A stretch of 52,556 bases of DNA from Nitrospira sp. Lineage in GTDB: Bacteria > Nitrospirota > Nitrospiria > Nitrospirales > Nitrospiraceae. Location: contig SWDR01000028.1 of NCBI GenBank assembly GCA_005116815.1, forward strand, positions 1 to 52,556, read 5' to 3'. The first letter of the stretch is position 1. Every line of letters begins with the position of its first letter. Made by a program: the position numbers and the translations under genes. Below the pieces are notes generated by a model that worked only from the letters and a program-made list of their open reading frames with translations, had not been told where the DNA came from and did no database searches. Positions 40,735-46,387 of this stretch are shown here, piece by piece.

Positions 40735-42171
40735 GTGGCACGCTTCACACAGGATTTGCGAAACAAAGTCCGCTCTCTCGTCAGGCGGGACACCGGCTTG
40801 GATGAGATTGCCATCGACGAACTTGCGACTTCAAGAAAGCTTCAGTCCTGGGAAGCGGTCCAAATCCCTGAACGCCTTCGATTTTCCTCGCGCCTCGCCA
40901 TCAAACTCGTACTCCTGTTCCTCTTGATCATCGCCTTCGTTCCTTGGACTCAAACGATTACCGTCAGCGGACAACTCTCCGCCTATACACCCTCCGAACG
41001 ACCACAAGATATTGAAGCGCAGATCACCGGACGGATCAAGAAGTGGCACATTTTTGAGGGGGTGCGCGTCAAGCAAGGCGATCTTATTCTTGAGTTGGAT
41101 GACTACGACCCCAATTTCATGTCTCCAGACCTCCTATCCTTCCTAGACCAACGACGCAAGGCACTGGATCAAAGTCGCAAGGCGGCGCTCGCCAGGGCCG
41201 AGCAATTGGATAAACGGATCAAGGAGATGCAGAACCTCGTGAAGTCCGCAGTCCCGTCCGCCCAGGCCCGCGTGATCGAATCCGAGAATAAGGTCCGCGA
41301 AGCCTACCAGAAAGTCGAAGCAGCAAAAATTGCAGTCGCGACAGCCGAGTTGAACGTGGACCGTCACAAACAGTTAGCGGAGCAGGGCCTCGTCTCGCAA
41401 CGCGAACTCGAGTTGACCATTCAGTCGGCGCTTGCCACCAAGGCCGATCTGACCGGAGCACAAGCCAACCTCAAGGGTGCGGAACAGGCCATGAAGGCTC
41501 TCGGTTTCGGCCGCGACCAGGTCAGCGCCGAAGTCCTGCAACGATTGCTCGACGCAGAAGCAGCCCGTGAGGCCTCTATCGGCGAAGCGGCAAAAGCCAC
41601 CGATCAACTGGCCGATGTCTCCCTGCGGATGTCTAACGCGGAACAACGCCGGCTCGCCGGCCACATCCTCTCCCCGATCGATGGCACCGTGGTGAAGATG
41701 GCTCAAGCCGGTGCCGGTGAAACCGTCCGCCCCGGGGACAAACTCGTGAAAATTTCTCCAGCGAGCGCCGACAAGGCCATCGAGATGGTGGCTGACGGAA
41801 TGGACGCCCCGCTGCTCAACGTAGGCCGGAAGGTGCGCGTCTTGTTTTATGGGATTCCTGCTATTCCCCTCCCGGCTTGGCCGGAGATCATGGCCGGCAC
41901 TTACGGTGGCGTCATCAAGGTCATCGACCAAGTCGACGACGGCAAGGGAAACTTTCGTTTCTGGGTGGTCCCGGATCCCGAAGATCGGACCTGGCCCCCG
42001 CAGGAACATGTTCGCCAGGGAACTAAAGCCATGGGATGGGTCATTTTGAACCGAGTCCCACTCTGGTACGAACTCTGGCGGCGCTTCAACCTCTTCCCGC
42101 CTGATTATCAAGAGCGCCCACCTAGCCTGATCGATACGCTCTTGCCAAAAGCAGGGCGAGGTGCGAAATAA
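40735..42171 (+). CDS. HlyD-family membrane-fusion/periplasmic adaptor protein
   Basis: N-terminal TM, biotinyl-lipoyl-like halves (GRIKKWHIFEGVRVKQGDLILELDD / GHILSPIDGTVVKMAQAGAGETVRPGDKLVKI), long coiled coil; GTG start. Confidence 0.88.
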   Translation: MARFTQDLRNKVRSLVRRDTGLDEIAIDELATSRKLQSWEAVQIPERLRFSSRLAIKLVLLFLLIIAFVPWTQTITVSGQLSAYTPSERPQDIEAQITGRIKKWHIFEGVRVKQGDLILELDDYDPNFMSPDLLSFLDQRRKALDQSRKAALARAEQLDKRIKEMQNLVKSAVPSAQARVIESENKVREAYQKVEAAKIAVATAELNVDRHKQLAEQGLVSQRELELTIQSALATKADLTGAQANLKGAEQAMKALGFGRDQVSAEVLQRLLDAEAAREASIGEAAKATDQLADVSLRMSNAEQRRLAGHILSPIDGTVVKMAQAGAGETVRPGDKLVKISPASADKAIEMVADGMDAPLLNVGRKVRVLFYGIPAIPLPAWPEIMAGTYGGVIKVIDQVDDGKGNFRFWVVPDPEDRTWPPQEHVRQGTKAMGWVILNRVPLWYELWRRFNLFPPDYQERPPSLIDTLLPKAGRGAK

Positions 42172-42292: not shown

Positions 42293-43777
42293 ATGAATTC
42301 CCGTCACTATCTCCCGATCGTGCTGCTCCTAGGGTCGATCGGACTCTGTCCCCTCACCTCTTCTGCGGGAGAACCGCTGAAATCGAAATCGCTCCCGCCG
42401 ATTCCCTTGAGCGTGGAAGAGATTCACGCCTGGATCGATCGCTCGCACCCACTCCTCAGGGGAGCCGGCACAGAGAAAACCATGGCACGAGGAAAAATGC
42501 TCAAAGCATTAGGCGCCTTCGAACCAACCCTGATCAACGATACGGAACTTGAACGATTCATCAAGAGTTCAGACCCCGGCAAAGGCACCCAAACGGTGGG
42601 CTTCAACGACACACTCGTCGAAGCGCGCCACCCCTGGGGATTTCGCTACAGCGCAGGGGTACGGCATGCCATCGGCGATGCAACCATTCCCGACCTTTCA
42701 TTTGGCGGGGGCAACAATCAAGTCCTGCTCGGAGGCTTTTTCCCGCTGCTCCGAGGCCTCATGATGAATCCCGAAAATGCCGAACTCCAGCGATCCGAAT
42801 TGGCCAATCCAAAGGCGGAAGTGCAGATCTCTCAAACAAGACAGGACCTGTTCCTGGCGGCAGCCACACAGTTTTGGGATTGGGTCACCGCGGTAAAGCT
42901 TGCAGAAGTACAGCGCCGGGCCGTAGGTGTGGCCGAAGATCGATATCGACAGGTCGAGGGCCGCGCCAAAGCAGGAGCCGTCGCGCCGCTCGACGTGGTC
43001 GAGGCTAATCAGGAGGTTCAGCGCCGCCGCGAGGTGGCCATCGCCGTGCAACGGCTGGTGGAACAAGAACAGCTGAAACTGTCCATGTTCCTCTGGGATA
43101 ATAACGCGCCCGTCTCGCCGCATCTGGAGCGAGCCCCGGACTTCCCGTCGACCATGCTGGTGCCGGCGCCTGACACCATCCAAGCCCATAAACTCCAAGC
43201 GAAAGTCGATCGGCCGGAGGTCAAGGAGATCGGCATCGAAGCCAAGCTCAACAATATCGATCTGGAGCTGGCCAAAAACAACCTCCTCCCAAGCCTGGAT
43301 GCTGAAGCAGCGCCCGCGCGCGCGCCGGAGAAGTTCGTGCTGGGGCTCGGCTACCGCTTTGGACTGGAGCTCAAGATTCCGATCCTCCAGCGAAAGAGCC
43401 GCGGCGAAGTCCTGGAAGCGCAAGGCAAGGCAGATCGATTTGTCTTCATGCAGCAATTTCGCGAACAACAAGTGCTCATCGATGTCGACAATGCCCTCTC
43501 CGCCCTCGAACGTGCCAAGGAGCGTGTCGCGGCCGCAGCCGAATCGCTCCGGCTAGCCAAGACACTCGAAGAAGGGGAGCGCTTCCGGTTTAGCCTTGGG
43601 GCCACCAGTATCCTCTTCGTCAACTTGCGGGAGCGGAATTCGGTCGATTCGGAGAGCCAGGTGATCCGAGCCAAAGCGGACTATCAAAAGGCCCAAGCCT
43701 TATACCAATGGGCCATCGGAGCCTGGGCCAGAACGACGCCGTTTGTGACCCCCGTGACCTATCGCGCAAGAGATTGA
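42293..43777 (+). CDS. TolC-family outer membrane efflux protein
   Basis: Signal peptide, repeated long helical segments, operon with HlyD-like and ABC-like genes. Confidence 0.82.
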   Translation: MNSRHYLPIVLLLGSIGLCPLTSSAGEPLKSKSLPPIPLSVEEIHAWIDRSHPLLRGAGTEKTMARGKMLKALGAFEPTLINDTELERFIKSSDPGKGTQTVGFNDTLVEARHPWGFRYSAGVRHAIGDATIPDLSFGGGNNQVLLGGFFPLLRGLMMNPENAELQRSELANPKAEVQISQTRQDLFLAAATQFWDWVTAVKLAEVQRRAVGVAEDRYRQVEGRAKAGAVAPLDVVEANQEVQRRREVAIAVQRLVEQEQLKLSMFLWDNNAPVSPHLERAPDFPSTMLVPAPDTIQAHKLQAKVDRPEVKEIGIEAKLNNIDLELAKNNLLPSLDAEAAPARAPEKFVLGLGYRFGLELKIPILQRKSRGEVLEAQGKADRFVFMQQFREQQVLIDVDNALSALERAKERVAAAAESLRLAKTLEEGERFRFSLGATSILFVNLRERNSVDSESQVIRAKADYQKAQALYQWAIGAWARTTPFVTPVTYRARD

Positions 43778-43914: not shown

Positions 43915-45579
43915 GTGCAAAGTCAGGTCGTTCATCAACAAAATCTGTTTCAATCGATGCTCGCATGCCTGGGCGTCCTCTTCCGTTTGGAACGGCGGAT
44001 CCTCGCTCTGATCGTCTCGTATTCGCTCGCCATTGGACTGTTTTCCCTCATCGTTCCTCTCACAGTCCAAGAGCTCGTCAACACGTTTGCCTTCGCCATT
44101 CAGCCCATTACCATTGTGACTCTCGCCGGGGTGATGGTGGCCGGGCTCATGTTCGTCGGAGCGTTTCGAGCCTTACAGTTCTATTCCGTCGAGGTGTTGG
44201 AGCGCCGGATCTTCGCTCGGGTTGCCCTCGGGATGGCCCAACAGTTGCCCCAGCTACAATTTTTAGGGTTTAAGCCCCGCTATGCCAATTACTTCATGGA
44301 AACAATCTTTATGCAACGGGCGCTCTCCGTCCTCCTCGTTGACCTGATCAATGTCATCGTGGGCGGGGCGGTCGGCATGACCATCCTGGTCTTTTATCAT
44401 CCCTACTTCTTGCTGTATAACGCACTGCTCATGGCAGGATTTACCGTCGTCTTTTTCCTCATGTCGCATGGAGGACTGAAGGCCACCATCAACATGTCCC
44501 ATGCGAAATATGACACCCTGCATTGGCTGCAGGAGATCTCGTTCAATCTGCTGCACTTCAAAGCCACAGACAGCCAAGCCATACTGATGCGAAGAACCGA
44601 CGAGTTAGTCCAGTCCTACGTTGAGACCAGACAAACTCGATTCGGCATTCTGATTCGCCAATACCTGGGATCGGTCGGCTGGCAAGCCGTCGCCCACAGC
44701 GGACTCCTCGCGACGGCCGGATGGTTGTTATCCATCGGCCAATTGACGCTTGGACAACTAGTCGCCGCCGAGGTTGTTGTCAGTGGACTCCTTTTGAGTT
44801 TTGATGCCGTCGTCAAACGCATGGGACACATTTATTACTTCCTCACCGGTTTGAACGAGCTCGATTTTCTCTTCTCGCTTCCAAAGGACCAAGCCTCCGC
44901 CACCCTGTCCGTCCCGTTGCCGGATCCTACCATTCACGGTATTCGCGTGACCTGCAAAGACCTCGCGGTCATTCACCCTGGCCTGCCTCCGATCTTCGAG
45001 CAGTTCAACCTTGAAGTCACCCCCGGGGAAAAAATCGGTGTCTACGCCAGTACGGCTGCAGCCAAAACGGCGCTCGCACGAGTCTTGGCAGGACTGGAAA
45101 CGCCGACCGGTGGTGTCCTTCGCTACAACGGGGTAGACCTTCGCCACCTCGATCTTCACGCCATCAACCGCTGTCGAGGGTTCATGATCGACTCCCAGCT
45201 CTCTCTGTTCGAGGGCACGATCGAAGATAACATTGTGTTGGGACGATCCTATATTCCGTATAGCGATATCCGGTGGGCACTACGCTTCACCGAACTGGAA
45301 GAAGACGTCGACGCATTCCCGCAAGGACTCAAGACCCACATCCGGGCCCCCGGGAAAATCCTGGCTCCGACGCATATCATGCGGATCCTGCTCGCACGTG
45401 CCATCCTGGCTCGTCCGCAAATTCTGATCTTTGACGGCATCATCCACAACCTGCAACCGACTATGCGCGAGACCGTCTTGCGGCGGCTCTGCTCAAAAGA
45501 CGAACCCTGGTCGGTGATCTTTGTGTCGAACGATCCGAATCTCACACCGCACGTCGATCGACGAATCATTCTCGATTAA
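43915..45579 (+). CDS. ABC exporter-like protein with degenerate nucleotide-binding domain
   Basis: ABC TM domain fold pattern; NBD with GEKIGVYASTAAAKTAL, RILLARAILARPQILIFDGIIHNLQ, VIFVSNDPN in place of Walker A/signature/Walker B/H-loop; GTG start. Confidence 0.82.
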   Translation: MQSQVVHQQNLFQSMLACLGVLFRLERRILALIVSYSLAIGLFSLIVPLTVQELVNTFAFAIQPITIVTLAGVMVAGLMFVGAFRALQFYSVEVLERRIFARVALGMAQQLPQLQFLGFKPRYANYFMETIFMQRALSVLLVDLINVIVGGAVGMTILVFYHPYFLLYNALLMAGFTVVFFLMSHGGLKATINMSHAKYDTLHWLQEISFNLLHFKATDSQAILMRRTDELVQSYVETRQTRFGILIRQYLGSVGWQAVAHSGLLATAGWLLSIGQLTLGQLVAAEVVVSGLLLSFDAVVKRMGHIYYFLTGLNELDFLFSLPKDQASATLSVPLPDPTIHGIRVTCKDLAVIHPGLPPIFEQFNLEVTPGEKIGVYASTAAAKTALARVLAGLETPTGGVLRYNGVDLRHLDLHAINRCRGFMIDSQLSLFEGTIEDNIVLGRSYIPYSDIRWALRFTELEEDVDAFPQGLKTHIRAPGKILAPTHIMRILLARAILARPQILIFDGIIHNLQPTMRETVLRRLCSKDEPWSVIFVSNDPNLTPHVDRRIILD

Positions 45580-45592
45580 GTAAGGGAACAGA

Positions 45593-46387
45593 GTGGAACT
45601 GACAACATTTTTTCGATCATTTCGTCCGAGCGCCTCACAACTATTGATCAGCCTCCTGGTTGCCGGACTTGGGTGGCTCAGCGGACAAGCCTTGAGCAGC
45701 GTCGACCAGGATTTACGCATTATGTATACCGAGTACACGCTCGGAGCCACCGACCTTGCTCATATTTCTGCAGACATCATGCGGTACCGGAACACCATCA
45801 TCCGCGCGCTCGAAGCGGACAGCCAGAAGGACTTCGAGCGAATCACGGAATCCCTGCCCGCACAACGCGCGAGAATTCAGCATGCCGTAGACCGGTATGC
45901 GGCCGCAGGGCTGCGCGTCTCACGGAGCGGGCGTAGTGAGCCTGAAGATATCGAGGCGGTCCGGCGCAGTCTCGACCAGTATTTTTCCGTGGCCAGCACG
46001 ACTGTACAACTCTTGACGCAGGAATGGACCGCCGTCTCTCCAGCGGAACGGGAAAGCATCAGACGAAAAGCGGAGGAACATGCCTCCGATAACGCAGGAC
46101 CGAAAATGATTCAGGTCAGCCTCGCGCTGGACCGGCTATTGGACACTGTGGCGGATGTGGCAAAAGACATGCGGGATGAGGGCACCAAGGCGATCCAGCG
46201 CACAAGCCTGCTGCTCGTAGGTGGAAGTTTTTTTATCGCCTTTTTGAATCTCTTCTTCACCAGACAGCGTGGAGGAACCTCCCAGCACAGGGATGGTCCG
46301 GATGAACGCGAGATCGATTCCGTCCACAGGCCCATCCCGCGTCCATTGGCCAGCGACTCCCCAGCGGCGGCCCTACGTCAGGAATAG
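45593..46387 (+). CDS. Membrane protein with periplasmic 4-helix-bundle/CHASE3-like sensor region, no output domain
   Basis: TM at N-terminus, helical region with MRYRNTIIRAL, second TM LLLVGGSFFIAFLNLFF, short tail. Confidence 0.6.
   Translation: MELTTFFRSFRPSASQLLISLLVAGLGWLSGQALSSVDQDLRIMYTEYTLGATDLAHISADIMRYRNTIIRALEADSQKDFERITESLPAQRARIQHAVDRYAAAGLRVSRSGRSEPEDIEAVRRSLDQYFSVASTTVQLLTQEWTAVSPAERESIRRKAEEHASDNAGPKMIQVSLALDRLLDTVADVAKDMRDEGTKAIQRTSLLLVGGSFFIAFLNLFFTRQRGGTSQHRDGPDEREIDSVHRPIPRPLASDSPAAALRQE

Follow-up and report, generated by a model that had tools for sequence, protein, structure and literature searches.

The window, meaning the whole stretch of DNA that was analysed (52,556 nucleotides; Nitrospira sp., contig SWDR01000028.1), contains an operon bordered by housekeeping genes (purK and purE; rluB-like and speB-like genes). 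Its genes, together with the two domains of the ABC-exporter-like protein, are as follows.

40735..42171, + strand: HlyD-type periplasmic adaptor, 478 aa (Pfam HlyD_3, 7.6e-9; TIGR01843, 2.6e-21)
42293..43777, + strand: TolC-like outer membrane factor, 494 aa (Pfam OEP, 6e-32)
43915..45579, + strand: ABC-exporter-like protein with a degenerate NBD, 554 aa
43915..44889, + strand: membrane domain (TMD) of the ABC-like protein, aa 1-325, kept in every family member
44932..45576, + strand: pseudo-NBD, aa 340-554 (Pfam ABC_tran, 1.3e-8, above the Pfam cut-off)
45593..46387, + strand: orphan 4HB_MCP protein, a four-helix bundle (Pfam 4HB_MCP_1, 1.3e-7)

The intergenic gaps are 121 bases between the HlyD and TolC genes, 137 between the TolC and ABC genes and 13 between the ABC and 4HB genes, and the ABC reading frame is open from a GTG start with no internal stop. 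The adaptor is laid out with a short cytoplasmic N-terminus, a single transmembrane helix (about residues 48-79) and an RLS TolC-docking motif, RHKQLAEQGLVS. The 4HB_MCP protein has two estimated transmembrane segments (about 17-35 and 204-224) and no HAMP or output domain. In a survey of related loci its gene was confined to the Nitrospiraceae form of the operon, and we do not regard this 'sensor' as a core part of the system. It is 33-39% identical to part of longer proteins from the same genus (frames of 355-662 aa), which are likely to be full chemoreceptors; because of this resemblance, it may itself be a truncated chemoreceptor.

By descent, the 554-aa protein is an ABC exporter of the type IV fold. 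Its architecture is that of an exporter, with an NBD fold coming after a six-helix TMD that has long cytoplasmic loops, and an AlphaFold2 model made with 52 natural sequences (mean pLDDT 79, pTM 0.69) predicts a complete exporter fold, including the NBD. The closest PDB structure to the model was HlyB in the HlyB/D complex (8dck; TM-score 0.88). Alignment with intact exporters from the genomes of its relatives gave the following motif positions.

45046..45069, + strand: degenerate Walker A, aa 378-385 (ASTAAAKT)
45361..45375, + strand: degenerate ABC signature, aa 483-487 (LAPTH)
45421..45456, + strand: Walker B/D-loop region, aa 503-514 (Asp507 kept; catalytic Glu replaced by Gly508; SALD replaced by HNLQ; new invariant His511)
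45529..45534, + strand: H-loop His replaced by Asn539, followed by a conserved Asp540

Where intact exporters read GRSGSGKST at Walker A, the protein reads ASTAAAKTA, with all three glycines changed to alanine and Lys384 and Thr385 retained; LSGGQ in the intact signature corresponds to LAPTH. The Q-loop Gln is Ser427 by PDB alignment, but this column is shifted in the family alignment and the assignment is hence less certain. The protein therefore fails the criteria for a functional ABC exporter ATPase at Walker A, the signature, the catalytic Glu and the H-loop His. At positions formerly devoted to ATP chemistry it has new residues that are themselves conserved (Ser427, Gly508, His511 and Asp540), and from sequence alone we infer that this new set marks a retained domain with an altered job.

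The same losses run through the family. None of the 129 NBD-bearing members kept more than five of 13 scored catalytic residues, as against at least 10 of 13 in each of 12 intact exporters. The first signature Gly and the H-loop His were found in 0/129, the signature Gly485 was missing in 129/129 and the catalytic Glu survived in 2/129. The Walker A Lys persisted in 97/129 (with Arg in 27) and its Ser/Thr in 91/129; in members of the family-level group f3 the Lys was also gone. The search turned up no intact-motif homologue; the closest proteins with intact motifs are ordinary ABC exporters, about 25-30% identical.

A membrane-domain profile (threshold E <= 1e-15) matched 110 of the 396 genomes sampled from the phylum. 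The Nitrospirales carriers, counting orthologues and paralogues, fall into two family-level groups, f1 and f3, within one order, and Nitrospira defluvii and N. moscoviensis are among the relatives that have names. Association with HlyD and TolC genes is nearly constant, in five gene orders: HlyD-TolC-ABC(-ABC2)-sensor; TolC-ABC and an oppositely oriented HlyD; as many as three TolC genes in tandem, then ABC and HlyD; HlyD-TolC-ABC in f3; and HlyD-TolC with a TMD only. A few paralogues (L035-L038) sit away from recognisable HlyD/TolC genes. The RLS pattern R...L......S was present in 82/82 Nitrospirales HlyDs. In all eight genomes of the genus that lacked the ABC-like protein and were checked, HlyD was not found either. 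Two genomes, G031 and G006, had only broken remnants of the operon at the syntenic site, and in a small-genome relative, G160, a truncated HlyD was the sole remnant. The genes are gained and lost as a unit. The syntenic remnants comprise the truncated HlyD alone at L219 (7253-8602; G160) and broken ABC and sensor pieces at L044 and L204.

Other features of these loci were observed in passing. Two or three different tandem TolC-like genes precede the degenerate ABC and HlyD genes in L097, L098, L102, L104, L105, L108 and similar loci, which suggests a mixed outer membrane channel. A contig labelled Armatimonadetes (L086; JAIBHM010000125.1) holds a copy of the Nitrospirota type, with 67% identity to the 554-aa protein; L085, from the same sample, is likewise 67% identical, and the label is likely to reflect a binning error.

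Could the gene simply be decaying, with an ATPase on its way to being lost and a locus without function? The remnants in G031, G006 and G160, and the absence of the gene from other genomes of the genus, are what such an explanation can offer. Against it, dN/dS was 0.03-0.11 across intact reading frames, more than 100 intact genes share identical losses, and residues such as His511 and Asp540 have newly become invariant. The range of 0.03-0.11 holds for the pseudo-NBD itself, with no systematic difference from the TMD, HlyD or TolC, although dS was saturated in the most distant pairs. The pseudo-NBD is under purifying selection as strong as that on the TMD, and decay is all but excluded; a merely local pseudogene is ruled out by the low dN/dS and the more than 100 intact relatives.

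These results bear on an earlier note, made from the sequence of the window. Its claim that the Walker A glycines, LSGGQ, catalytic Glu, D-loop and H-loop His were replaced, with the Lys and the Walker B Asp kept, held; its claim of an altered Q-loop Gln is less certain, that position being alignment-dependent. HlyD-like, TolC-like and sensor neighbours were confirmed by Pfam, the orphan sensor belonging only to the Nitrospiraceae version. Its suggestion of selection for a non-hydrolysing ABC scaffold was supported by conserved losses and low dN/dS. The checks it proposed on homologues and dN/dS came out in its favour, and neither of the two findings that it named as refuting turned up: identical losses were conserved beside HlyD/TolC neighbours without an intact-motif homologue, dN/dS of the pseudo-NBD resembled that of the membrane domain, and the only second ABC copies were degenerate.

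The family extends beyond Nitrospirota, where only plasmids, and no chromosomes, were surveyed. A TMD-only search of 72,556 plasmids returned 22 records, from sphingomonads, Persicobacter, Aureibacter and Riemerella. All 13 plasmid loci fetched encoded ABC, HlyD and TolC, so that HlyD/TolC genes adjoin the family gene in Sphingomonadales and Bacteroidota as well as in Nitrospirales. The NBDs were degenerate there too, with different spectra of loss: in Riemerella and Persicobacter the P-loop is nearly intact and the signature and H-loop His are lost. On a TMD tree, the family members included were split from the intact exporters with 100% bootstrap. The family is apparently one old branch, and the tree leaves its root and the number of losses unresolved. 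Of six HlyDs tested from outside Nitrospirales, four lacked the RLS pattern, so TolC docking may differ there.

Some side observations concern these loci. In Persicobacter (L164, L168) the ABC reading frame has an N-terminal extension of about 170 aa that partly matches the N-terminal region of LssB-type exporters. Genes for LysR-type regulators lie near family operons in three phyla (L045, 210-1139; L040, 2226-3140; L166, 8161-9069) and upstream in L169, L171 and L174. Such regulators near an operon are usual for small-molecule efflux.

A referee might object that the degenerate protein is energised in trans: an intact ABC half-transporter whose gene lies elsewhere could pair or co-assemble with it, the degenerate protein perhaps forming structural dimers within a three-dimer ring of the HlyB/D kind. 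Heterodimeric exporters in which one site is degenerate are indeed common (PMC7756269), the HlyB/D complex consists of three HlyB dimers and six HlyD (PMC11026475), and other HlyB-related half-transporters were present in 16/16 genomes checked; that the same genomes hold other ABC half-transporters is a point against the explanation we favour below. However, the loci inspected held one ABC gene or two degenerate ones and no intact NBD partner: where a second ABC gene follows in tandem, both copies are degenerate. Moreover, every ATP-site motif is lost, not merely the set belonging to one half-site, and the NBD-less members described below could not form an NBD pair at all. The near-complete carrier genomes G020, G011, G015 and G001 had no match above the HlyB cut-off, which weakens the in trans explanation without excluding it, and overall we consider it unlikely. 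Examples of tandem degenerate pairs are L034 (6856-10320) and L065 (5887-9477), with the second copy about 53-56% identical to the 554-aa protein; such a pair might form a pseudo-heterodimer.

In one Nitrospirales lineage (G056, G058 and G387) the NBD is absent, and the locus encodes HlyD, TolC and a membrane domain of 339-348 aa. Identity in the coupling helices CH1/CH2 was 0.27/0.21 between NBD-less and NBD-bearing relatives, compared with 0.55/0.64 among NBD-bearing relatives, whereas TM5-6 identity was 0.81 in both comparisons. The loops that would contact the NBD have decayed, and TM5-6 and the HlyD/TolC partners have been kept. This loss in one lineage, with its coupling-loop decay, is shown directly; the decay of the coupling loops beside a conserved TM5-6 indicates that selection acts to keep the membrane domain, with the pseudo-NBD a dispensable accessory. 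In the two genomes (f3) in which neighbours of the NBD-less form were examined, a dabB-like gene on the same strand comes next, followed by dabA (L045, 5495-11728; L046, 1-6279). In a Sphingobium plasmid, dabA (L166, 1362-3914) lies 43 bp upstream of the ABC gene. DabA is an inorganic carbon transporter, and a link of the family to inorganic carbon uptake is possible, dabA proximity having been seen only in L045, L046 and L166.

It might also be argued that the pseudo-NBD still binds nucleotide, and that binding without hydrolysis gates the membrane domain. The Walker A residues retained in most members (Lys in 97/129, or Arg in 27, and Ser/Thr in 91/129) favour this, as do the near-intact P-loops of the Persicobacter and Riemerella relatives. 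These same features count against the explanation we favour, and nucleotide binding is therefore not excluded. Nevertheless, the P-loop glycines have gone in most members, Gly485 is missing in all 129, f3 lacks the Lys and one lineage dispenses with the NBD altogether, and we think this explanation improbable.

The membrane domain has conserved residues of its own. The two that stand out, with helix boundaries taken from the AlphaFold2 model, are:

44398..44400, + strand: His162, in the TM3-TM4 turn, present in 131/131 aligned family members and 0/12 intact exporters
44770..44772, + strand: Glu286, in TM6; the family has Glu in 111 members and Gln in 21, and 0/12 intact exporters have Glu

Ser195 and Gln249 are further family-specific residues of this domain. 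Candidates for carrying protons were chosen by conservation alone. As 21 members have Gln instead, Glu286 is weakened as a candidate for a universal proton carrier and cannot be essential to every member in that role.

A further possibility is that the system is not a pump: the pseudo-ABC dimer would merely anchor a HlyD-TolC conduit, as a static gate or platform, with substrate drawn from the periplasm or with a part in sensing or envelope integrity. In its favour, no energy-coupling residue has been proven, an orphan periplasmic 4HB protein lies downstream in the Nitrospiraceae version and some lineages have several tandem TolC genes. However, invariant polar residues are kept in and near the TMD helices, and conservation is highest in TM5-6, even where the NBD has been lost. 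Together these point to a working translocation path, and a static platform seems to us unlikely.

How does the family compare with known systems? It resembles type I secretion (HlyB/HlyD/TolC; PDB 8dck) in exporter fold (TM-score 0.88), in homology of its membrane domain to HlyB (E 3.7e-10) and ComA (E 9e-13) and in its HlyD and TolC partners with the RLS motif; the criterion of an adaptor and a channel encoded with the ABC-like protein is met. It differs in that the 554-aa protein has no C39-like domain, has lost the catalytic NBD motifs and scores at most 112 bits where the NCBIfam T1SS cut-offs (HlyB, LssB, PrtD) are at least 510. No substrate gene for type I secretion was recognised near the operon. 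In heterodimeric ABC exporters (TmrAB, TM287/288, TAP) one chain likewise has degenerate catalytic residues, and the fold matches, but there an intact partner chain keeps one canonical site, whereas the family operon has no such partner and its tandem copies are both degenerate. Secondary-SecA/HlyD modules, a known non-ABC variation on T1SS parts (PMC4452313), consist of peptidase_M50 and SecA and do not match the operon.

SbmA/BacA (SLiPT) provides another parallel, an ABC-exporter-type membrane domain without an ATPase. SbmA is proton-driven, lacks an NBD and coupling helices and has been proposed to derive from a complete ABC protein (PMC13316013); coupling helices lost with the NBD have their counterpart only in the decayed loops of the G056/G058/G387 lineage, the 554-aa protein having a pseudo-NBD. 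Unlike SbmA, which is an importer, the family belongs to a HlyD-TolC tripartite set, its ABC ancestor lies on the HlyB/ComA side and not that of YddA, and most members keep a pseudo-NBD. Membership of SbmA/BacA was rejected, there being no match to Pfam PF05992 (SbmA_BacA). The membrane domain of MsbA without its NBD (MsbA-MD) transports on a pH/proton gradient (PMC4979069); unlike the family, it is a laboratory truncation and not a natural gene, and has no HlyD/TolC.

The explanation we favour, with moderate confidence, is a tripartite system for export or efflux in which the inner-membrane dimer hydrolyses no ATP itself. The operon would encode a trans-envelope exporter derived from a type I secretion or ComA-HlyB-like ABC exporter, with an inner-membrane dimer (a homodimer, by inference) that functions without ATP hydrolysis of its own. 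The pseudo-NBD would be kept folded and docked on the coupling helices, where its role is probably to clamp the dimer together at its cytoplasmic face or to regulate it. Substrate would pass from the membrane domain to the RLS-docked HlyD adaptor, then through TolC to the outside, and the energy may come from the proton motive force, perhaps via family-specific polar residues such as His162 and Glu286. This model rests on sequence alone: both transport and its outward direction are inferred, with no biochemical evidence. The same is true of the energy source, and a proton motive force drive remains a possibility, suggested by analogy with SbmA and NBD-less MsbA.

The earlier note had proposed a previously undescribed assembly not driven by canonical ATP hydrolysis. 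This is supported, as an inference; we found no description of a tripartite system with a dead NBD in the open-access literature searched, a scope that leaves out most subscription papers. The relatives in three phyla, the NBD-less lineage with its coupling-loop decay and the family-specific membrane-domain residues go beyond that note. A bolder reading, for which the case is suggestive but still falls short, is of a naturally occurring tripartite exporter family spanning at least three phyla and powered by the proton motive force or by some source other than ATP. Its conserved pseudo-NBD would be a structural or regulatory module, shed by one lineage, and the family would be a second, independent case, besides SbmA, in which an ABC exporter became a non-ATP transporter.

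The annotation 'ABC transporter ATP-binding protein' can denote a protein without a working ATPase. How the membrane domain of an ABC exporter works without ATP is an open question, for which SbmA is the main natural case. The family shows steps side by side, from near-intact P-loops in some Bacteroidota, through degenerate NBDs in Nitrospira and sphingomonads, to NBD loss with coupling-loop decay in one Nitrospirales lineage, and all of them retain the HlyD-TolC set. Since it is found in widespread nitrifiers and in culturable Novosphingobium, the family is open to experimental test.
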